DNA from: Oscillospiraceae bacterium
Lineage (GTDB): Bacteria; Bacillota; Clostridia; Oscillospirales; Ruminococcaceae
NCBI GenBank assembly: GCA_017848115.1
Contig: JAGAKZ010000029.1
Span: 17,316 to 81,315 of the forward strand
Direction: 5' to 3'
Length of the DNA: 64,000 bases
Positions 1 to 63,541 of the stretch are shown here, in pieces. Position numbers and translations under genes: made by a program. The first letter of the stretch is position 1, and the number at the start of each line of letters is the position of its first letter. The notes beneath the pieces are model-generated. The model saw only the letters and a list, made by a program, of their open reading frames with translations. It had not been told where the DNA came from and did not search any database.

Positions 1-1
1 T

Positions 2-1360
2 GATTCGGGAAATAGATACTTTTACGATGATAACAATGGTAGTGTTACACTTACAGATAGCCATGATGATATAGATTTTATTTATGATGAAAATTCGGAA
101 GTGGACAATGAATTCAATGTTGATGCAGATGAAATTGACACATACCTTAAATATAACGGTTATAACCAGATGATGTTGGTTGTAACTGAAAAATGTAATC
201 TTAGATGTAAATATTGTATTTACTCAGGAAATTATGATAATCAACGAGAACATGGAATAAATATTATGAGTTTTGAAACGGCTAAGAGAGCTATAGATAT
301 GTTTTATGAAACTCAAAAAATAAAGATTAAAAATAACGCTCTTCATCTTCCTCTTCTCGGTTTTTATGGTGGAGAGCCGTTAATGAATTTTAAACTTGTT
401 AAAGAGTGTGTTGATTATGCAAGAGAACTTTTTGATAATAATATTAATTTTCTTGCTACAACTAATGGAACTATTATGAATGAAGAAATTGCAGATTTTC
501 TTATAAATAATAATTTTGCACTTTCAGTTTCACTTAATGGTAATAAAAAAGAAAATGACAGATTAAGAGTATTCTGTGATGGATCAGGCACTTTTGAAAC
601 AATCATGAAAAATATAAGTTTCCTTCGTGAACGAAATTTTGATTATTTTAAGAAAAATGTTAAATTTATTGGATGTTATGATTGGAAAAGTGATTTAGAT
701 TCAATCAATGATTTTTGTAAGCAAAACGAATACGATATACCAGAAATAGTTAAAATATCAATGGTGAATGATACGTTTACTGATTGGTATAAACAATTTA
801 CAGATCAGGAAAAGAAAGAATTTTTTGCTTATAAAAAAGAAATTCAGAAAAAGATTACTGATAATCTTAAAAACGGAAGGCCACTTGAACCAATTGAAAG
901 ATTACTTTATGCTGACAGCATTATGGAAGTAGTTAATAGAATTGTGAATATTCCGGTAAGTCAGATACGTCCGTCTTTTTCTCCAATAAGCGGAACGTGT
1001 ATTCCAGGAACCAAATTATGTGTAGCCCCTGATGGAAAGATACATAGCTGTGAAAAGATAAATAATACAAGGCCTATTGGTAACGTATATGATGGAGTTG
1101 ACATGCAAGCAATAGCAGATATGCTAACTGCGTATTATAAAAAGCTGGCACCAGTGTGTTCTAAATGTCCTGTTAAGCGTCTTTGTCCTATTTGTTTCAC
1201 ATCTTGTCTTGGTGATGATGGTGAATTTACGCGTAGTCAGATAAAAAATTGTGAACAGGTAAGAAAAAGTATGCGTGAAAAATTTACATTTGTATTTAAT
1301 CTTCTTGAAGCTGGAATCTCAGAAGAGCAATTATTAGATATTAACAAAAGAGGTAAATGA
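2..1360 (+). CDS. Radical SAM/SPASM peptide maturase (5' end outside window)
   Basis: Iron-sulfur enzyme expected to modify a ribosomal peptide through S-adenosylmethionine cleavage. Counting from the GTG at 101, the [4Fe-4S] motif CNLRCKYC has Cys at 32, 36 and 39; a GGEP motif follows near residue 85. The C-terminal third is a cysteine-rich SPASM domain (CIPGTKLC, CEK, CSKCPVKRLCPIC, SC, NC) that would bind two auxiliary clusters. The frame stays open without a stop from 101 back to base 2, and no ribosome site precedes the GTG, so the gene almost certainly starts upstream of the window; the extra N-terminal residues are acidic. The stop overlaps the next gene's ATG (ATGA), indicating translational coupling. 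The family is known for RiPP maturation; the substrate is unknown. Confidence 0.85.
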   Translation, partial: DSGNRYFYDDNNGSVTLTDSHDDIDFIYDENSEVDNEFNVDADEIDTYLKYNGYNQMMLVVTEKCNLRCKYCIYSGNYDNQREHGINIMSFETAKRAIDMFYETQKIKIKNNALHLPLLGFYGGEPLMNFKLVKECVDYARELFDNNINFLATTNGTIMNEEIADFLINNNFALSVSLNGNKKENDRLRVFCDGSGTFETIMKNISFLRERNFDYFKKNVKFIGCYDWKSDLDSINDFCKQNEYDIPEIVKISMVNDTFTDWYKQFTDQEKKEFFAYKKEIQKKITDNLKNGRPLEPIERLLYADSIMEVVNRIVNIPVSQIRPSFSPISGTCIPGTKLCVAPDGKIHSCEKINNTRPIGNVYDGVDMQAIADMLTAYYKKLAPVCSKCPVKRLCPICFTSCLGDDGEFTRSQIKNCEQVRKSMREKFTFVFNLLEAGISEEQLLDINKRGK

Positions 1361-2577
1361 TGAAAAAGTATATGATATTGAATAATAAATATAGTGTTGA
1401 GTACGGAAAATATGATGCAACTTTATTTAATTTTGAGGATTATAATTTCTTTTCAATTAACGGTGAACGTTTTAAACTTTTTAAAGATTGGATAAAAGGA
1501 GAGCCTATTGATACTGATGAGTTCAATGAAACATCAAAAGAATTTTATGAGTTTTTGAAAAACAATGATGTAGCACAATTCAGCGATAAATTTTACATTA
1601 GTGAGCAATTTAATGTAGGCAAAAAATTATCGCTTTATAACGAAAAAATATGTAAATTAAGCAGACTGTTTATATCGCTTGGAGATGATGAAGTTAAAAA
1701 AACCAAGAATATTACATCGCCTTGTTGGGTCTGTCTTAGCGATTCACCGGTGAAAATACAAAATCCTGAATTATACGTTGAATTGATAAAAAAAATAGCA
1801 TCAGATGGTGGAGATCAGATAATTCTTTATGGTGGAAATGTAATAGCTAATCCGGAAATTTCAACATTTATGAAAGTAGCAGATGAATCGTATATTCAGT
1901 TATGTATAAATGTGAATAGTAAGACTTTGATAGATGAAGAAATAAAACTTGCTGAGGAATATAATACGATTTTAGTAGTGACATTTGATTTTAGTGAAAA
2001 ATTTGATATGGATCATTTTAATAATGTTTTTGAACGTATAAAGCAATATGGTGTATTAGCTAAATATTCATTTGTTGTGAGCAATGATACTATAGAAAAA
2101 TATAAGATGATGGAAGACAAAATCAGCGATCTTGGTGCGGAAATTGTCAATTTAAGCATAGTTATGGATGACAATATAACAGAAAATGAACTTTCTGAAG
2201 TATGTATTCCTAAAAATATTGGTTTTGAAGAATATAAAATTTATAAATCCATGAATCCCTGTATGGCTGGAAGTCTTGTTGTTGATACAGATATGAGTAT
2301 TTTGCCTTGTCCTGTAATGAAAAAACATCAACTTGGAAAAGTGGTTTATGCTAATGGTGAGATTAAAATGCAGATGAATCGTGATAAATATAGGTTATCT
2401 GATTTTTGGCTCAGTAGTAAAGAGTATATCAATAACTGTTCGGAATGCTCAAGAAAGCATCTGTGTATGGATTGCAGAGGAGCAGAACTTTCTGTGGGCG
2501 ATATAAACAATAACTTTTTCAAGCGAGAATGTGAATATATGAATAAATGTCGTGATTATTTTGAAATGTCTAAGTGA
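1357..2577 (+). CDS. Pseudo-radical-SAM/SPASM partner protein
   Basis: 406 residues. The N-terminal 80 residues resemble the leader-binding region seen in some SPASM maturases (weak, by pattern only). In the barrel region, where CxxxCxxC would be expected, there is only C123-x-x-C126 (PCWVCLSDS), and the GGE motif is replaced by LYGGNVIANPE, so a SAM-cleaving cluster is unlikely. The C-terminal SPASM cysteines are kept (CMAGS, LPCPV, CSECSRKHLCMDC, C, C). It overlaps the upstream maturase by 4 bases and is followed by an exporter. I infer a catalytically inactive scaffold, or a peptide-recognition partner of the first enzyme. Pseudo-rSAM/SPASM proteins paired with an active rSAM are known in other RiPP systems. 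Confidence 0.75.
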   Translation: MMKKYMILNNKYSVEYGKYDATLFNFEDYNFFSINGERFKLFKDWIKGEPIDTDEFNETSKEFYEFLKNNDVAQFSDKFYISEQFNVGKKLSLYNEKICKLSRLFISLGDDEVKKTKNITSPCWVCLSDSPVKIQNPELYVELIKKIASDGGDQIILYGGNVIANPEISTFMKVADESYIQLCINVNSKTLIDEEIKLAEEYNTILVVTFDFSEKFDMDHFNNVFERIKQYGVLAKYSFVVSNDTIEKYKMMEDKISDLGAEIVNLSIVMDDNITENELSEVCIPKNIGFEEYKIYKSMNPCMAGSLVVDTDMSILPCPVMKKHQLGKVVYANGEIKMQMNRDKYRLSDFWLSSKEYINNCSECSRKHLCMDCRGAELSVGDINNNFFKRECEYMNKCRDYFEMSK

Positions 2578-2600
2578 TTATTATATATGGAGTATAAATA

Positions 2601-4247
2601 ATGAAAAAAGTAAAGAATACTTCTGAAAAAATAGTAACAGGACAAATAAAAAAAATGATACCATTTATTATCGTATTATTTTTAATATGTTCAATAACAT
2701 GTATTATAGAACTTATCATACCATATATCGACAAATCAGTTGTTAATGATGGTCTGCTGAAAGGTGATCAGTCAAAATTTATAAGACTTTTGATTATAAG
2801 TTTTATGGCAACTCTCTTATCTAAATTAATATCGTTTGTTGGAGCAATGATATTCAATAAATTTTCTTGTGTAATGATACAAAACATAAAGAAAGAAGTG
2901 TTTAGACGTTTAACTGCTCTTCCTGAGTATATATTCAGCAGTAATCAGGGAGGGTATATAAAAGCTAGGATGGATGAAACAGATGTGATTTCGGGCTTCT
3001 TTTCGCCAGTCGTCTTCAAGATTATTACATCAACAGTTACGATGATAGGTGCGTTAATTTATATTTTTAAGCTGGATTTTACTATATTCTTAATAACATT
3101 GGCTTCTGCGCCGATAATATATTTTATTTGTACTATGTCTTCAAAAAAAGTATCAAAACTTTCTGAAAATATAAATGAATCAGAAGCAAAACTTTCAGGA
3201 CAAATGCAAGAATATATTCAGGGTGCTGCAGAAATAAAACAACTTAATTTGGAAAATAAAGCGAATACAAGCATAAATTGCCGACTTGAAAATATTACAT
3301 CTAAGTCTATAAAAAGAAGTAACAGAATAGAAGGCGGTACCACACAAACCAGTCTTGTCTGTTCTATAGTACAGCTTATTGTTACACTTGTTGTGGGTAT
3401 CAAAATTATGAATAATGGACTCAGTTTGGGTGACTATGTGTCGGTTTCAAGATACATATCCTATGTTTTTTCACCTATTATTCTTTTTTCTACTTATTAT
3501 CTTTCAATTCAGGAGGCTATAGTTGCATCAAAGCGTATAAATAACTTTTTTTCAGCAGCAGAAGAAAAGAGCGAATATGGTAAGCATCTCAGCGATGTAA
3601 AAAATATTCGATTTGAAAATGTAAGTTTTTCTTATGATAATAAAAATAATATCCTTACAGATGTCAATCTGGAGATTAACAGTCATGATAAAGTAAATAT
3701 TTACGGAAAAAATGGATGTGGTAAAACTACACTTATAAAAATGATTACAGGATTAAAAGTTCCGACAAGTGGAAAAGTGTATGTAAATAATATTCCTATA
3801 GAGGATATTAATTTACCATCTTTAAGAAGTCATATTGGTGTTTTATCACAAGATTCATATTTGTTTTCAGGTTCGGTCATAAGTAATATTATTTCGTCAC
3901 CGGAAGATTTAGATGTATGGAGAAATATTTGTACAAATGAAGTTTTCCGTGATCTTGACTGGGAAAAAGGAGTTATTGTTGAGAATGGTAAAAATATTTC
4001 GAGTGGACAAAAACAAAAGATTGTTTTGGCAAGACTTATGATAAAAAATCCTGATGTTATTGTTATTGATGAAGGGATAACCAATCTTGACATAGAATCA
4101 AAAAGTGTTATAATTAATGCAGTGGATACATTATTTAAGGATAAAATATGTATTTTTGTATCGCATTCTGATGATTTTTCTGATTGTGTAAACAGAAAAT
4201 TACTTATAAAGAATAGGCGTATAACGGATATATACCAAACAGCATAA
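2601..4247 (+). CDS. ABC exporter, fused membrane and ATPase domains
   Basis: 548 residues, a half-transporter of the type I exporter fold. About six membrane helices occupy residues 15-300, followed by an ATPase domain: Walker A GKNGCGKTT near 369, signature SSGQKQK near 467, Walker B VIVIDEG near 484. The residue after Walker B aspartate is Glu, the expected catalytic base. There is no N-terminal C39 peptidase domain, so any leader cleavage would need another protease. It starts 23 bases after the pseudo-rSAM gene with GGAG at 2590. Its place behind two SPASM proteins suggests export of the modified peptide. Confidence 0.85.
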   Translation: MKKVKNTSEKIVTGQIKKMIPFIIVLFLICSITCIIELIIPYIDKSVVNDGLLKGDQSKFIRLLIISFMATLLSKLISFVGAMIFNKFSCVMIQNIKKEVFRRLTALPEYIFSSNQGGYIKARMDETDVISGFFSPVVFKIITSTVTMIGALIYIFKLDFTIFLITLASAPIIYFICTMSSKKVSKLSENINESEAKLSGQMQEYIQGAAEIKQLNLENKANTSINCRLENITSKSIKRSNRIEGGTTQTSLVCSIVQLIVTLVVGIKIMNNGLSLGDYVSVSRYISYVFSPIILFSTYYLSIQEAIVASKRINNFFSAAEEKSEYGKHLSDVKNIRFENVSFSYDNKNNILTDVNLEINSHDKVNIYGKNGCGKTTLIKMITGLKVPTSGKVYVNNIPIEDINLPSLRSHIGVLSQDSYLFSGSVISNIISSPEDLDVWRNICTNEVFRDLDWEKGVIVENGKNISSGQKQKIVLARLMIKNPDVIVIDEGITNLDIESKSVIINAVDTLFKDKICIFVSHSDDFSDCVNRKLLIKNRRITDIYQTA

Positions 4248-4266
4248 TTGAACAAGGAGGATAATT

Positions 4267-4431
4267 ATGGAAACCAAAGATATCGTTTTAGTTGCAGGTG
4301 GTATTTTGTTGATAGCAATATCAGCATTTTCAAAAAGAAATAAGAAGGAAGAACTGAAAAAAATGGTTGGTTTATTTTTTGTAACAGCTCTTGTTTTAGT
4401 TGCAGTGGTAGTTGCAGGATACTTTTTATAA
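4267..4431 (+). CDS. 54-residue two-helix membrane peptide
   Basis: Short gene with a strong ribosome site (AAGGAGG at 4254-4260, 6 bases before ATG), lying between the exporter and the second ABC ATPase. The peptide begins METKDIVLVAGG, has a first hydrophobic helix, a charged turn (SKRNKKEELKK), a second helix (LFFVTALVLVAVVVAGYF) and ends there. It has no Cys, no signal-peptidase site and no double-Gly leader cleavage pattern, which argues against it being a SPASM substrate. A small transporter subunit, immunity peptide or antimicrobial two-helix peptide are all possible. I do not recognise a family. Confidence 0.7.
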   Translation: METKDIVLVAGGILLIAISAFSKRNKKEELKKMVGLFFVTALVLVAVVVAGYFL

Positions 4432-4453
4432 TTGTTAAAGGGAGAGAGTTGAT

Positions 4454-5353
4454 ATGCTGAATATTGAAAATCTGAACTTTTCATATAAAAAAGGAAAACA
4501 GATATTATATGATATATCTCTTAACATAAAACCAGGAGAGATAGTAGGGCTTATTGGTATGAACGGTGCCGGAAAAAGTACACTAATGAGAAACATATCG
4601 GGAATAGTGAATCCCGATAGTGGAAAAATCGTTATAAATGGGACTGATAGAAAAAAATATACTTCTGAGGAACGTAAAAAAATAGCCTATCTCAATGCGG
4701 AAAATAATCTTTACAATGAGATTACTGTAAAAGAAAATATCAATATAATGCAGCATTTTTATAATGTTTCTAAAGTGAGGACAGAAAATGTAATAAAAAT
4801 GCTTAGGTGCGACGAATTTATGGACAAAAAAGTAAGTGAACTTTCGTCAGGAATGCGTCAACGAGCAGCGATTGCAGCTTCAACTCTCAACAATTCTAAC
4901 CTTATACTCCTTGATGAACCTACTAATGCAATTGATATTGAAACTAAAAAGTATATAATGGACTATATAAATTATCTCTCAAACAAAAAAAATGGTATAC
5001 TTATAACTTCTCATAATATCAAAGATATTGAAGAACTTTGCGAAAGAGTATATATAATGAGACATGGCAGAATTGTTAAAGAAGCAACCGTGGAATCAAT
5101 TTTGAAAGAATCGTCTGAAAAGAATCAGAAATGGAGTATATCTGTTCCTAAAAATACAGATATACCGCGCTTAATTGGAAATAATGTAGAGTATTACATT
5201 GAAGAAGGTGATTTGAATTTGAAGGTAGTGGTAAATGAAAAATTCAAACAAAGTACTATAAAGTTGTTTGTAAACTCTGATGTTGAAATAATTTCTGTAG
5301 AAAGCTTTATAAATAATCTTGAAGATGCTGTTCTTGAAATTATAGGTGACTAG
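4454..5353 (+). CDS. ABC transporter ATP-binding protein
   Basis: 299 residues. A standalone ATPase: Walker A GMNGAGKST near residue 36, signature LSSGMRQR near 133, Walker B LILLDEPT near 155, then a C-terminal extension of about 90 residues typical of ATPases that pair with ABC-2 permeases. It starts 22 bases after the 54-residue peptide with GGGAGAG as ribosome site, and is followed 16 bases later by its likely permease. In bacteriocin clusters such pairs often give self-protection (LanFEG-like); that role is inferred from position here. Confidence 0.85.
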   Translation: MLNIENLNFSYKKGKQILYDISLNIKPGEIVGLIGMNGAGKSTLMRNISGIVNPDSGKIVINGTDRKKYTSEERKKIAYLNAENNLYNEITVKENINIMQHFYNVSKVRTENVIKMLRCDEFMDKKVSELSSGMRQRAAIAASTLNNSNLILLDEPTNAIDIETKKYIMDYINYLSNKKNGILITSHNIKDIEELCERVYIMRHGRIVKEATVESILKESSEKNQKWSISVPKNTDIPRLIGNNVEYYIEEGDLNLKVVVNEKFKQSTIKLFVNSDVEIISVESFINNLEDAVLEIIGD

Positions 5354-5369
5354 AGAATAGGAGGATTTT

Positions 5370-5999
5370 ATGCTGTATAGAGAATTAATTTTCCTTAAAA
5401 AAGATGTAAAAAAATACATATTGGCATTTTTTATGTTAGGAGTTGTAATAGGATATTTCATATATAAGGGTATGGATAGTTCTATTCTGCTTTTTTTCAG
5501 TATTTCCATGCCTGGTATAGTTATTGCACTACAGGCGACTCAAAGTTCAGTAATGTATGAAAAGAATAATGGTATGTTTGAAAAACTTCTTACTGTTTAC
5601 AAACTTCCAAATATTTTAATGGCAAAATCATTTGTTTCGTTTATTATAAGTGCAATAGGGCTGATTGTATGCAGTAGTTCTGTTGCTCTTATAATAAATT
5701 TTAGTAAAAATATTGCGATTAGCAGTGATGTTTTTTTATGTCAGTTGTTGATCGCGATTTGTATAAATCTAACTTTGTCATTGTTGCTTGTAATACTATG
5801 CACTTGTGTTAATCAGATAATCGTTGTAAATGGTTGCGTATTATTGATAATGATGATAATGTCTGCGATATGCTATAACATTGTAAAAGCAGAGTCAATA
5901 GTTGTTTATACAACAATATGTTGCTTGGCGATTCTTGCTGTTGGAGTGGTACTTGCAATATGTATGAAATTTATAAAGTATAGTGTAGTTATTAAATAG
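5370..5999 (+). CDS. ABC-2 type permease, small
   Basis: 209 residues, almost entirely hydrophobic with about six membrane helices; no recognisable soluble domain. Preceded by AGGAGG (5359-5364). Directly follows an ABC ATPase and is the last gene before a strong terminator, so it most likely forms the membrane half of that transporter. Sequence similarity to a named family cannot be judged by eye; the assignment rests on topology and context. Confidence 0.7.
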   Translation: MLYRELIFLKKDVKKYILAFFMLGVVIGYFIYKGMDSSILLFFSISMPGIVIALQATQSSVMYEKNNGMFEKLLTVYKLPNILMAKSFVSFIISAIGLIVCSSSVALIINFSKNIAISSDVFLCQLLIAICINLTLSLLLVILCTCVNQIIVVNGCVLLIMMIMSAICYNIVKAESIVVYTTICCLAILAVGVVLAICMKFIKYSVVIK

Positions 6000-6002
6000 T
6001 TA

Positions 6003-6034
6003 AAAGGGAGATGTAAAAAAACATCTCCCTTTTA
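6003..6034. terminator. Bidirectional terminator between permease and cysK
   Basis: Perfect 13-base stem AAAAGGGAGATGT/ACATCTCCCTTTT with an A6 loop. U-runs form on either strand, which suits the two converging genes. Confidence 0.9.
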
Positions 6035-6052
6035 AATTTGTAAAAATCAAAA

Positions 6053-7074: not shown

Positions 7075-8523
7075 TTAATATGCCTTGCCCCAGTAAACAA
7101 GTGTTGATGCAGGTTTGCCACAGCATACGCATACATCAGAGATCTTGTCCTGATTTTCAGGGATACAACGTGAACCAACGCCTGTCTTTTCCTTTACTTC
7201 GTCTTCACAAGCTTCTTCACCGCACCACATAGCCTTTACAAAACCGTCACCTTTCTGTTCAAGAACAGAAACTATTTCGTCCATAGTCTTGCAGGAGTAT
7301 GTTTTGTTTTCTCTGTTTTCGAGAGCTTTTGCATAAAGACCGTCATGTACTTCTTTGAGCTTCTTTGCAACTTCTTCTTCAAGGTTGTCAAGGCTTACTA
7401 CAGTCTTTTCGTTGTTGTGACGTGTTACGAGTACACACTGGTTATTTTCGATATCCTTAGGACCTATTTCAAGTCTTACAGGAACACCCTTCATTTCATA
7501 TTCTGCAAACTTCCAGCCTGCTGAGTTGTCTGTATCATCAAGTTTTACTCTTACGCCGTTTGCCTTGAGTTTGTCTGCAAGTGCATTTGCCTTGTCAAGA
7601 ACGCCTTCTTTGTGCATAGCTACAGGGATAATAACGAGCTGTACAGGAGCTACTGCAGGTGGGAGAACAAGACCGTTGTTATCACCGTGAGTCATGATTA
7701 TAGCGCCTATAAGACGTGTTGTAACGCCCCATGAAGTCTGATGAGGATTTACTTTTTTGTTTTCCTTATCAGTATATTCGATATCGAAAGCTTTTGCAAA
7801 TCCATCGCCAAAGTAGTGTGATGTACCCGCCTGAAGCGCCTTACCGTCATGCATAAGTGCTTCTATAGCGTATGTAGAAACTGCACCGGCAAACTTGTCA
7901 CTTTCAGTCTTCTTACCTTTGATAACAGGCATAGCAAGAGCGTCTTCGCAGAATTTTGCATAAACGTTGAGCATCTTTTCTGTTTCTTCAATAGCTTCCT
8001 GTGCTGTTGCGTGTATAGTATGACCTTCCTGCCATAAAAATTCTCTTGAACGGAGGAAAGGACGTGTTGTCTTTTCCCATCTTACAACACTTACCCACTG
8101 GTTGTAGAGCTTAGGGAGGTCACGGTAAGAGTGGATTATATTTGAATAGTGTTCGCAGAAAAGTGTTTCAGATGTAGGGCGTACACAGAGTCTGTCTTCG
8201 AGTTTTTCACTTCCGCCATGAGTTACCCATGCAACTTCAGGCGCAAATCCTTCAACGTGGTCTTTTTCTTTCTGGAGAAGGCTTTCAGGTATGAACATAG
8301 GCATACATACGTTTTCGTGTCCTGTTTCCTTGAACATTCCGTCAAGTATCTTCTGGATATTTTCCCATATAGCATAACCGTAAGGACGTATTACCATACA
8401 GCCCTTTACGCTTGTATACTCGATAAGTTCAGCTTTCTTAACTATATCAGTGTACCATTTTGCAAAATCTTCTTCCATAGAAGTAATGGCTTCAACCATT
8501 TTTTTGTTATTATTTTTACCCAT
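7075..8523 (-). CDS. proS: Proline--tRNA ligase, short (archaeal/eukaryotic-like) type
   Basis: 482 residues. A class II synthetase charging tRNA-Pro. Motif 2 region ([21 protein letters not shown]) and the motif 3 arginine segment are seen, with the anticodon-binding domain and a C-terminal zinc-type domain ([19 protein letters not shown]). It lacks the inserted editing (INS) domain of the long bacterial ProRS, so it belongs to the short ProS type common in Clostridia and Mollicutes. Starts 10 bases after an upstream small membrane gene, with which it shares a promoter. No T-box leader is visible. Confidence 0.95.
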
Positions 8524-8533
8524 CTGGAAATCC

Positions 8534-8758
8534 TCATTTCTTATTGATATTATCTTGATTTTTTTGATGTTTTTTTAATTCCGGAAAAAAAGTACGTTCC
8601 GGTTTTTCATCGGTATCATGCGGTTCAAATGCACTTCTTACCGAGTACAGACGTTCATCTTCAGGAGATTTTTTGTGTTTTTCTATATGAGCATCTATTT
8701 TCTTGGCTATTTTTGGTGTGAGTTCTGCCAATAAATAAATAAGAAGAAAAATAAACAA
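8534..8758 (-). CDS. Small single-span membrane protein upstream of proS
   Basis: At least 74 residues: a hydrophobic N-terminal helix then a charged, Lys/Glu-rich cytosolic tail ([17 protein letters not shown]). The TTG start at 8758 has no ribosome site. The frame stays open to 8816, and AGGAGG (8825-8830) is ideally placed for an AUA codon at 8815-8813, giving IFNVAAFSVEISFAFLGK in front; no ATG, GTG or TTG exists in that stretch. So either a rare AUA/AUU start is used or the base calls hide one. Function unknown; co-transcribed with proS. Confidence 0.55.
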
Positions 8759-16067: not shown

Positions 16068-16738
16068 ATGGTTATACTATCAACTGAAAATCTTAAAAAA
16101 TATACGGCAGAGGCGAAAATGAGGTGCGTGCACTTGACGGAGTAAGTCTTGAGGCTGAGCAAGGCGAATTTGTTTCCGTTGTCGGAACATCAGGAAGCGG
16201 AAAGTCCACGCTTTTGCATATGCTCGGGGGACTTGACCGTCCTGATTCCGGAAAAGTATATGTAGACGGAAAGGATATTTTTTCTTTTAAAGATGAGGCG
16301 CTTACAATTTTCAGAAGGCGAAAAATAGGTTTTGTTTTTCAGAATTATAACCTTGTGCCGTCACTTAACGTATATGAAAATATCGTACTTCCTGTTCAGC
16401 TTGACGGCAGAGCACCTGACAAGAAGTACATTGACTCAATAATCGAAACTCTCGGTCTTAGTGAAAAGCTTGACAATCTTCCGAACAATCTTTCCGGCGG
16501 TCAGCAGCAGAGAGTTGCTATTGCAAGAGCATTGGCTGGAAAGCCGGCAATAATCCTTGCAGATGAGCCTACGGGAAATCTTGACAGCAAAACCTCGCAG
16601 GATGTTATGGGACTGCTTAAAATAACAGGCGAACGTTTTTCTCAGACAATAGTTATGATTACTCATAATGAAGAAATCGCACAGCTGGCGGACAGGATAA
16701 TCAGGATTGAGGACGGAAAGATAGTTTCAGGAAAATAA
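16068..16738 (+). CDS. ABC transporter ATP-binding protein, frame broken in A6 tract
   Basis: The natural start is ATG 16068 behind AAAGGAG, reading MVILSTENLKK; the frame then fails after the A6 run at 16095-16100 and ends at a TAA at 16142-16144. From 16124 the rest continues one frame away as VRALDGVSL. Adding a single A restores LKKIYGRGENEVRALDG, the usual N-terminus of LolD/MacB-type ATPases. The remainder is intact: Walker A GTSGSGKST, signature LSGGQQQRVAIARA, Walker B ILADEPTGNLDS. Either a homopolymer base-call error, a recent mutation, or transcript slippage on A6. A GTG at 16124 lacks a ribosome site. The partner permease follows at 16751. Confidence 0.82.
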
Positions 16739-16750
16739 GAGGTGACATCT

Positions 16751-19354
16751 GTGAAGATCAATAATAAAAAATGTATCAGCCGAATAAGCATAAAAAATCT
16801 GCTTATGACAAGGACAAGGTGTATTATTTCAATAATTGCAATCGCACTTACCACAATTCTTTTTACATCGCTTTTTACAATACTTATGACTATGGCCAAA
16901 AGCGTTGAGGAGTCAAATTTCAGACAGGTAGGTACATATTCTCATGGCGAATTCAAGAGGCTTACAAAAGAGCAGTACGAAAAGCTGTGTGGTGATGAGG
17001 ATATAAAAGAATACGGTCTGCGAAGGGTTGCAGGAATCACGGCAGGTGAAGCCTTTGTCAAAAACTATGCTGAAGTAAGCTATATGGACCGGAACACTGC
17101 AAAGTGGAGCTACTGTACTCCTGACAAGGGTAAGCTTCCGAAGGAAAACACCAACGAAGCAACTGTTGATACAAGAGTGCTTTCCTGCCTTGGTATTGAA
17201 CCCATAATAGGAAAAAGCTTTTCTCTTACAATGGATATTGATGGGATTATCGTTACAGAGGATTTTGTTTTAAGTGGATACTGGGAATATGATGAAGCTG
17301 CGCCTGCAAGTTATGTACTCATTCCGGAAAGCAGACTTGAAGAACTTTTTTCAAAGTATGATGTACAGTTCAATGTTGAGTTCACAGGAAAATACGGGCT
17401 TGATGTCATGCTGAAAAGTGACCATAATATTGAAGAACAGCTTGTTGCCATTCTTGAACGTCACGGTTTTTTAAACGGTCAGGAAGGTGATAATTCAGTG
17501 GCTATTGGTGTGAACTGGGGCTATATGGGAGAAAATATTACCCAAAGCCTTGATTTTGAAAGTTATGCTATAATCGGTGTTATACTTCTTTTCATTATAT
17601 TTACCGGATACCTTATTATCTATAATATTTTCAGAATATCTGTTGCAAACGACATACGTCATTATGGTATGCTGAAAACTATCGGTACAACCCGGAAACA
17701 GATAAAGCGCATGGTTATGATACAGGCACTGATTCTTTCGGCTTTTGGTATTCCGACAGGACTTATTATCGGATGGCTGACCGGAAGTATTCTTTGTCCT
17801 GTAGTGATGTCGGAGCTTAATACATATAACTCATCAGCTTCTGTAAGTCCGTGGATATTTGTGTTTTCGACTGTGTTTGCTCTGATGACTGTTATAATTT
17901 CATGCTTTATTCCTGCTAAAACCGCTGCTAAGGTATCACCTGTCGAGGCACTCAGATATACGGAGCAGGCATCAGGCTTTGGCAGGCGAAACGGGAAAAA
18001 AGGTGTATCATTGCCCGGTATGGCATTGGCAAGGCTTTCAGGAAGCAAGGGTAAGACTTTTCTTGTCATTTCATCGCTTTCGCTTTCAATAATAATTTTT
18101 TCTCTTACTTTTATTCTTGCAGGCAGCTTCAGTATAGAAAAATACCTTTTTGATATTCAGGCAGATTTTCTCGTGGCAGAGTCAAAGTATTTTTCATATG
18201 ACTGGGACGAAGAAAACGCAATCTCTCTTGAGGATAATGAATTTCTCAGATATATGGACGGTGTAACCGACAGCTTCGTGAGCTATGGAATGCCTGATTT
18301 ATACTATCCGATGATATTTTACAGCGAAGAAGCTGTACGAAGATCGCTTGCAGAATCCGGTAACGATGATAATGTTATAGATAATTATATTTCAATGAAC
18401 ATCGAGCCTGACGGCACAGTTGCAGAGTATACACAGATTCTTGGCCTGGATGAGAATGCTTTTTCAAGACTTAAGGTGTGTGAGGGAGATATAGGAAAGC
18501 TTTCGGAAGAAGGCTATATTGCTGTAGAAAAGAATGATTTTTTCAATCCCGGAGATAAGGTTACCATACGTTATAGTGATAACTCTGAGTATATAAATAC
18601 TCAGACCGGTGAAGCTTATGACATTATGTACGCAGAAAGTATACCGGTAGATGAATGGAAGTTTCTTGAATTTAGCGAAGAAACACACGAGGCTGTATAT
18701 GAAATAGCAGCTGTTGTTGAAGTACCGTATACACTCGGTTACAGATTTTCATTAAGCAATCCGTTGTTTGTTACAAGTGCTGATGATCTGTTTGCGCAGT
18801 CTGAACACTGCGCCCCGCTTTACATTGCCTTTGATACAACAGATGAGGCAGAAGCAGATATAGAAAAATTTCTTGCCGACTATACTGAAAAATCAACTCT
18901 CAGCTACACAAGCCGTGCTACAGAAGCTGCTGCGTTTGAGTCTTTACGTAAAATGTTTATTATTCTCGGAACAGCCCTCAGTGGTATTTTAGGACTTATC
19001 GGAGTACTGAACTTTGTTAATACAGTACTCACAAACATCAGTGCACGTCAGAGGGAAATAGCTGCGCTTCAGGCAATGGGTATGACAGGAAAACAACTTT
19101 GTACAATGCTTATCTGGGAAGGTATGATCTACATTCTGGGTACATCAGCAGTTTCACTGGTGCTTAATCTGATAACGATCCCTTTGAGAAGAGTGATAGA
19201 AAACATGTTCTGGTTCTGTGATTACAGCTTCACTCCGCTTCCTCTTATCGCCGCAATAATTGTATTTACCGTTATTGGTGTAATAGTTCCTTTGATTACG
19301 TATAGGATACTTATAAAAAAATCAATTGTAGAAAGACTCAGGGAAAATGAGTAA
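16751..19354 (+). CDS. FtsX-family ABC permease, large external domains
   Basis: 867 residues. I choose GTG 16751 because AGAGGTGA precedes it by 7 bases. One helix near 20-45, an external domain of about 210 residues, three helices of a first FtsX domain (near 270-400), a further helix, a second large external domain of about 250 residues, and a final FtsX domain with three helices ending RLRENE. This resembles permeases that work with a LolD-type ATPase in peptide-sensing detoxification modules of Firmicutes. The last 30 codons and the 3' flank recur at 20606-20845. Confidence 0.9.
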   Translation: MKINNKKCISRISIKNLLMTRTRCIISIIAIALTTILFTSLFTILMTMAKSVEESNFRQVGTYSHGEFKRLTKEQYEKLCGDEDIKEYGLRRVAGITAGEAFVKNYAEVSYMDRNTAKWSYCTPDKGKLPKENTNEATVDTRVLSCLGIEPIIGKSFSLTMDIDGIIVTEDFVLSGYWEYDEAAPASYVLIPESRLEELFSKYDVQFNVEFTGKYGLDVMLKSDHNIEEQLVAILERHGFLNGQEGDNSVAIGVNWGYMGENITQSLDFESYAIIGVILLFIIFTGYLIIYNIFRISVANDIRHYGMLKTIGTTRKQIKRMVMIQALILSAFGIPTGLIIGWLTGSILCPVVMSELNTYNSSASVSPWIFVFSTVFALMTVIISCFIPAKTAAKVSPVEALRYTEQASGFGRRNGKKGVSLPGMALARLSGSKGKTFLVISSLSLSIIIFSLTFILAGSFSIEKYLFDIQADFLVAESKYFSYDWDEENAISLEDNEFLRYMDGVTDSFVSYGMPDLYYPMIFYSEEAVRRSLAESGNDDNVIDNYISMNIEPDGTVAEYTQILGLDENAFSRLKVCEGDIGKLSEEGYIAVEKNDFFNPGDKVTIRYSDNSEYINTQTGEAYDIMYAESIPVDEWKFLEFSEETHEAVYEIAAVVEVPYTLGYRFSLSNPLFVTSADDLFAQSEHCAPLYIAFDTTDEAEADIEKFLADYTEKSTLSYTSRATEAAAFESLRKMFIILGTALSGILGLIGVLNFVNTVLTNISARQREIAALQAMGMTGKQLCTMLIWEGMIYILGTSAVSLVLNLITIPLRRVIENMFWFCDYSFTPLPLIAAIIVFTVIGVIVPLITYRILIKKSIVERLRENE

Positions 19355-63468: not shown

Positions 63469-63541
63469 AGCTGTTTAGCGGGCTCGAACCGCCGACCTCT
63501 TCCTTACCAAGGAAGTGCTCTGCCTACTGAGCTAAAACAGC
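63469..63541 (-). tRNA. tRNA-Thr (anticodon GGT)
   Basis: 73 bases. Acceptor stem GCTGTTT/AAACAGC, D arm TAGCTCAGTAGGCAGAGCA, anticodon stem CTTCC/GGAAG with loop TTGGTAA giving GGT, T arm GGCGGTTCGAGCCCGC. The discriminator is U and CCA is not encoded. Confidence 0.96.

Follow-up and report, generated by a model that had tools for sequence, protein, structure and literature searches.

A putative huazacin-type sactipeptide operon with a TrnD-like partner lacking the radical-cluster motif in an Oscillospiraceae genome

The window analysed here, a stretch of 64,000 nucleotides of contig JAGAKZ010000029.1 (positions 17,316 to 81,315) from the Oscillospiraceae bacterium assembly GCA_017848115.1, opens with an operon in which the genes of two radical S-adenosylmethionine (SAM)/SPASM-type proteins overlap, and the second protein lacks the motif of the radical cluster. 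What is the role of such a protein in a cluster for a ribosomally synthesized and post-translationally modified peptide (RiPP)? Taken together, the data make it probable that the operon was acquired and encodes a sactipeptide akin to huazacin (thuricin Z), the first enzyme, rSAM1, acting as the catalyst and the TrnD-like partner as a non-radical helper. This reading is favoured by the precursor scores, the register of the acceptor residues, the gene order on plasmid pRUMAL03, the conserved Cys residues and the ATGA coupling of the two genes.

All six named genes are open frames within positions 2-5999 of the window (Table 1), and the overlap of the rSAM1 and partner genes by ATGA agrees with the two overlapping SPASM genes of a RiPP-type operon recognized in an earlier note on this DNA. 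The product rSAM1 contains CNLRCKYC, GGEPL and seven SPASM Cys and matches the Pfam domain Radical_SAM with 60.3 bits. The partner, as the note had stated, retains the SPASM-type Cys (C302, C318, C361, C364, C370, C373 and C392) but has no CxxxCxxC; a frameshift concealing this motif was rejected, since the other two frames around the site also lack it. PCWVC is found at residues 122-126 and GGN at residues 159-161. Pfam at E 0.01 detects no domain in the partner, a warning for genome mining.

The precursor, expected upstream of base 1, was found there on reading the upstream DNA: three tandem genes for Cys-rich peptides lie just upstream of the window in 184-bp repeats, the other copies being 93% and 85% identical to the first, with an AAGGAGG site ahead of each gene; genes 2 and 3 encode an identical protein. 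Searched with one surplus residue at the start, the precursors score 55.1, 54.3 and 54.3 bits against NCBIfam NF037972 (huazacin family), all above the cut-off of 35. By reading, the precursor contains four Cys and no C39-type Gly-Gly leader. For thuricin Z the available part of a review gives the cross-links Cys16-Asp26, Cys12-Thr30, Cys8-Tyr34 and Cys4-His38 (PMC8172795), and the same offsets applied to the precursor yield C20-D30, C16-T34, C12-Y38 and C8-A42. Acceptors D30, T34 and Y38 at +10, +18 and +26 thus stand in the thuricin Z register, three of the four positions agreeing, while the outermost acceptor position, +34, holds A42 in place of the thuricin Z His. When the tail was shuffled 200,000 times, D, T and Y all fell on these offsets in 74 draws. 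Judged from sequence, the product should be a small peptide antibiotic with cross-links like those of huazacin (thuricin Z), and the operon should be a TrnC/TrnD-type sactipeptide cluster of the same kind.

Fourteen partners, namely those beside a TrnC-like gene, were counted. The seven SPASM Cys columns are filled in all of them, and both columns of an additional CxxC are Cys in 14/14 (spacing CxxC in 13, CxC in Aeribacillus), while the three columns of the radical-cluster Cys hold Cys in 12/14, 11/14 and 12/14. The proper motif is absent from the partners of the window and of Coriobacteriales OH1046 (L094) and is broken in L142 (C-x6-C), which was scored as a loss although other cluster binding is possible there; leaving it out gives two clear losses. 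Six partners (L136-L140 and L142) were found with a profile containing the radical motif, so the search is biased against finding losses. In rSAM1, CxxxCxxC is kept in 14/14 clusters; nine of these were found without rSAM1 motif patterns, but the count is biased for L020, L021, L022, L025 and L094, found through patterns containing CxxxCxxC or FYGGEPL. Four candidates were left out of the counts: L141 (a partner-like protein that retains CxxxCxxC but whose stretch showed no TrnC-like neighbour), L041 (a 114-aa fragment whose genome match carries in-frame stops), L067 (a SPASM protein without CxxxCxxC, 5 kb from a radical SAM gene of a different type) and L052 (26 bits, CxxxCxxC kept).

The conserved CxxC changes the view of PCWVC, which had been assigned to the place of the SAM cluster. 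Alignments of 2, 3 and 8 sequences in MAFFT had also put it on the radical motif, but the 14-row alignments place it at the separate, conserved CxxC, and its interpretation as a relic of the radical motif was rejected. The GGN loop proposed as a replacement of GGE is indeed present, but it is no signature of loss, as it occurs in 5 of the 11 partners with CxxxCxxC (the others having GGD in four cases, GGE in one and none in one). In the L140 partner (7446-8669) CxxxCxxC is kept and the GG loop is gone (KIPDI), another type of damage at the SAM site. It is unlikely that the window partner is still a radical enzyme whose cluster is bound by alternative ligands such as C123, C126 and a further Cys. 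Both residues and the GGN loop are retained, and the barrel region of an eight-partner profile still aligns with rSAM1; however, the 11 relatives with CxxxCxxC carry the second motif as well (CxxC in 10, CxC in Aeribacillus), so that a relocated radical motif is rejected, and the Coriobacteriales partner, in which the motif is also lost, has IGD instead of GGD.

Trees of the partner and of rSAM1 were built with the motif columns excluded. The window partner is sister to that of L137, a Bacillales locus (the order to which the Aeribacillus genome belongs) with the motif kept, at 100/99, and the rSAM1 proteins are likewise sisters at 100/100. Loss of the motif requires three changes on both trees, and the starred branches alone force two in the partner tree and three in the rSAM1 tree. 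The motif losses do not form one clade: a single clade of the three losers was rejected by the approximately unbiased (AU) test (p-AU 1.25e-5 on the partner tree and 4.0e-5 on the rSAM1 tree), and on the partner tree the pairs of the window with Coriobacteriales (p 0.0006) and of Coriobacteriales with L142 (p 0.014) were rejected too. The end branches are long, and the tree program warns that the placement of long rows is unsure.

The window end branch, 2.18 in the partner tree (the longest there) versus 1.11 in the rSAM1 tree, has the highest ratio of the 14, and the rank sum of the losers' ratios gives a one-sided p of 7/364, a rough value, as the two trees differ. This is consistent with selection that has been relaxed or redirected, or with decay. 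Decay toward a pseudogene once rSAM1 had become sufficient is nevertheless quite improbable: the 406-codon frame is intact and ATGA-coupled to rSAM1, all nine family-invariant Cys are present, and the frames of the other two partners without the proper motif are likewise intact.

A helper role of the partner finds its model in thuricin CD. Mutants of TrnD showed that its radical cluster is dispensable and that one enzyme is catalytic (PMC12093266), and the available part of a commentary describes the same TrnC/TrnD asymmetry (PMC12406949); such an asymmetry would permit a natural loss of the motif, and the partner is read here as a non-radical subunit on this basis. Both systems contain two radical SAM/SPASM-type proteins, one of them catalytic in thuricin CD and predicted to be so here. 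TrnD, however, retains CxxxCxxC and its SPASM has three Cys, whereas the partner here has lost the motif but carries seven SPASM Cys, and thuricin CD has two distinct precursors instead of one repeated precursor. The thz cluster of Bacillus thuringiensis serovar huazhongensis, compared by description only, resembles the operon in its huazacin-type repeated precursors, two radical SAM-type genes, ABC (ATP-binding cassette) transporter genes and permease, and its acceptors Asp, Thr and Tyr lie at identical offsets according to the available part of the review; it differs in the outermost His and in ThzD, which the same part reports as active in vitro (PMC8172795), while the partner here lacks the radical motif.

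The following course may be proposed. The operon would have been acquired horizontally, and its three precursor genes would provide a hairpin peptide with four Cys. As the sole member of the pair able to form the deoxyadenosyl radical, rSAM1 would install all four nested thioethers. The TrnD-like partner, its radical cluster lost, would pair with rSAM1, as in the stable heteromeric TrnC/TrnD complex on which thuricin CD modification depends, as a non-radical subunit whose N-terminal domain could bind the leader in the manner of a RiPP recognition element (RRE; a winged helix-turn-helix fold with a three-strand sheet), and would retain two SPASM clusters and the CxxC in a structural or electron-supplying role. 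The fused ABC transporter would export the product, the short leader presumably being trimmed by a protease encoded outside the operon, and the 54-aa peptide together with the ABC-2 pair would confer self-protection.

Several points weigh against this course. Best matches of the partner N-terminus are TfuB1, an RRE protein (E 0.18), and PqqD (E 0.15 in one of the 14 members), both non-significant. Pairing of the window with L142 was not rejected on the partner tree (p-AU 0.052), and the counts of motif loss, 3/14 partners versus 0/14 rSAM1, are weak on their own. With the genome (3.34 Mb) 81% complete, a second partner elsewhere in it is possible. The helper model is drawn from thuricin CD and not from the closest product, for which the review, in its available part, states that ThzC and ThzD each form the sactionine alone (PMC8172795). 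TrnD itself is reported to carry a truncated three-Cys SPASM (PMC12093266), while the partners here have seven Cys, and the 2011 paper on TrnD homologues also names, in the part available, three TrnC homologues without the motif (PMC3132745).

Motif loss as such is not new, because the same part of that paper reports CX3CX2C in eight of ten TrnD homologues and its absence from Bthur0011_60830 and CD0163 of C. difficile 630 (PMC3132745). These are likewise TrnD-type proteins without the radical motif in thuricin CD-like clusters, but an alignment observation; CD0162, the TrnC-type neighbour, is likewise described as lacking the motif, and Bthur0011_60830 comes from the strain whose ThzD was later reported as active. 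NCBIfam already names the pseudo-SAM/SPASM family TIGR04347 and GwsS (grasp-with-spasm, TIGR04193), so SPASM proteins that lack a radical function were known before. In a full-text search of open-licence papers no functional study of a natural inactive or pseudo radical SAM partner in RiPP clusters was found. New here are the connection with a precursor of the same genome, the conservation of the second CxxC, several losses on the tree and the island described below. The mutation of thuricin CD in 2025 showed that the radical of one enzyme is dispensable, and this operon and that of Coriobacteriales look like evolution's version of it. A helper role thereby becomes testable in natural proteins, and attention is directed to the nine conserved Cys and not to the three of the radical cluster.

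More broadly, and only as a tentative idea, TrnD-like partners may have been converted repeatedly from radical enzymes to non-radical, cluster-bearing adaptors, with GwsS as a further endpoint. In this view the family is defined by the second CxxC and the SPASM clusters and not by the radical motif, and these could form a metal or redox site that donates electrons to the catalytic enzyme or arranges the peptide for it. The model TIGR04193 (cut-off 175 bits) matches 12/14 partners at E 0.01 or better, and the GwsS protein of L149 combines SPASM Cys with the absence of CxxxCxxC; however, it is shorter (359 aa) and without the extra CxxC, GwsS is named for its ATP-grasp partner gene, of which no match was found among the six window genes, and the window partner itself is unmatched to the model at E 0.01.

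The comparison with NCBIfam radical SAM models proposed in the earlier note places rSAM1 below the cut-offs of CcpM TIGR04068 (256/500 bits), RumMC (188/720), lachnocin (167/550) and PapB (138/340). Cross-links to beta or gamma carbons, as in ranthipeptides, instead of alpha carbons are improbable: PapB and CcpM do match rSAM1 at this level, and PapB links Cys with Asp or Glu according to the available part of PMC9413430, D30 being a predicted acceptor, but both the family of the precursor and its register match thuricin Z, a sactipeptide in which the acceptors, as far as described, also begin with Asp, and a ranthipeptide or CcpM system including the partner is disfavoured by the precursor family and the sub-cut-off maturase scores. 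The rSAM1 motif is preceded by 75 residues in the window, whereas R. albus has 77, L140 has 85 and nine others have 91-135, rough values that take the first in-frame Met as the start and leave out L137 and L142, in which the start is unclear; the window rSAM1 may hold a reduced RRE of its own.

Table 1. Features of the operon and its surroundings (window coordinate = L002 position minus 17315; the window begins at contig base 17316)
Feature	Window coordinates	L002 coordinates	Strand	Remarks
Precursor gene 1, huazacin family, 43 aa	-638 to -507	16677-16808		Upstream of the window
Precursor gene 2, huazacin family, 43 aa	-454 to -323	16861-16992		Upstream of the window
Precursor gene 3, huazacin family, 43 aa	-270 to -139	17045-17176		Upstream of the window
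rSAM1, TrnC-like radical SAM/SPASM enzyme, 463 aa	1..1360	ATG at 17284	+	Predicted catalyst; frame open at window edge (read from 2), ATG at -31
TrnD-like partner, 406 aa, without radical-cluster CxxxCxxC	1357..2577		+	Predicted non-radical accessory subunit
Codons of C123-W-V-C126, conserved extra CxxC of the partner family	1723..1734		+	14-row alignments
ABC exporter, membrane and ATPase domains fused, without C39 peptidase	2601..4247		+	Pfam ABC_membrane and ABC_tran above gathering score
54-aa hydrophobic peptide	4267..4431		+	Candidate immunity peptide; open frame; weak family matches
ABC transporter ATPase	4454..5353		+	Candidate self-protection; ABC_tran 125.7 bits
ABC-2 type permease	5370..5999		+	ABC2_membrane 25.2 bits vs gathering score 26.9
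Window portion of inserted island	1..5992		.	Full extent -1014 to 5992 relative to G010

Downstream of the pair, the fused exporter, the 54-residue peptide and the ATPase/permease pair are all present as described before. The exporter has three further Pfam matches, weak and below the gathering score, and no match to C39 peptidase in Pfam. The gene order and the missing protease had been called unusual, but the order recurs in the Bacillales locus L137 (radical SAM gene, partner, exporter, ATPase, then a 530-aa open reading frame unmatched in Pfam), the exporters of L137 and L015 also lack C39, and the thz gene list names no protease in the available part of the review (PMC8172795). For the ATPase the best NCBIfam model is of the DrrA type, below cut-off, and the permease falls just short of its Pfam cut-off. 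By reading, the 54-aa peptide consists of two membrane segments and a charged loop; LPXTG_anchor matches it with 16.9 bits against a cut-off of 15.9, yet the sequence holds no LPXTG, and matches to DUF5345 and DUF2304 are below cut-off. It is a candidate immunity peptide.

The operon genes have 29-31% G+C versus 38% in the remaining window, and a strong hairpin (folded on the minus strand) lies at 6000-6035. About 7.0 kb (-1014 to 5992) are an insertion holding solely this operon and absent from the site in one genome of the same genus (G010, locus L147), in which the spoVAE side is 86.5% and the cysK side 99.0% identical, with only 21 bp between them. Among five same-genus genomes searched for spoVAE, two gave near matches and G010 was the sole informative one; in G002 no cysK match was found within 2.5 kb after spoVAE. 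The unequal identity of the flanks, 99.0% on the downstream side (window from 5993) and 86.5% on the upstream side, suggests recombination around the insertion. At the position that the island occupies in the window genome, the empty site of G010 (L147, contig C41, 1635-1655) has a palindrome that may be a ParB/parS-like site.

Relatives of the operon were sought with the precursor model, the partner and rSAM1. In most relatives the precursors were assigned by Cys pattern alone; of ten candidates from relatives searched against NF037972, one scores above the cut-off, one 34.4 and one 9.5 bits, and seven are unmatched. For L020, L137 and L142 no precursor was found within the stretches examined. 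NF037972 matched the own genome alone among 396 genomes of the family, and the own genome and G327, the latter below cut-off, among 398 genomes of the phylum; the precursor search of plasmids gave no match. In G327 (L015, 6954-7599) two differing Cys-rich candidate precursors, at 34.4 bits and far below the cut-off, lie upstream of the pair, and this locus is possibly a two-peptide sactibiotic cluster. A tblastn search of plasmids with the partner gave a single record, pRUMAL03 of R. albus 7, with two huazacin precursors, the radical SAM gene and the partner in the same order as in the window; this partner keeps CDNNCFFC and has GGN. On this small plasmid (L014), LytTR and GHKL regulators and a CPBP protease are annotated beside the huazacin-family cluster.

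Scanning genome contigs with rSAM1 gave at least 408 relatives, of which the best 80 were kept. The partner-alignment profile recovered all seven genomes or records with loci previously found at E 0.001 and, at E 1e-25, matched 2/299, 1/197 and 6/200 genomes, the centre genome counted each time. In the order of the window genome it matched 253/345 genomes at E 0.001; among the matches listed, the own partner scores 408.5 and the next 59.5 bits, so the others look like ordinary radical SAM proteins. The own genome has four matches, the partner and others of 36.6 and 29.3 bits among those listed. The partner protein was found in the own genome alone among 149 related genomes, and in neither phages nor viral contigs. 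In viral contigs rSAM1 led to L016-L019, none of which the partner profile matched at E 0.01; in 77 further viral loci searched at E 1e-10, 15 matches of at most 55.8 bits were found, 15/15 with CxxxCxxC.

Other loci met in these searches include a TrnC/TrnD-like pair on a contig binned as Methanothrix (L021), which may be a binning error or a transfer to the archaeon, and two such pairs in one genome of candidate division TA06 (L020 and L136). In the Bacteroidales loci L042, L050 and L051 radical SAM genes are closely followed by a second one with the odd motifs CDVQCPLC, CSLHCCHC and CSLRCRHC. The sole Rfam match at the gathering score in the window and L002 is a tRNA at 63469-63541 on the minus strand.

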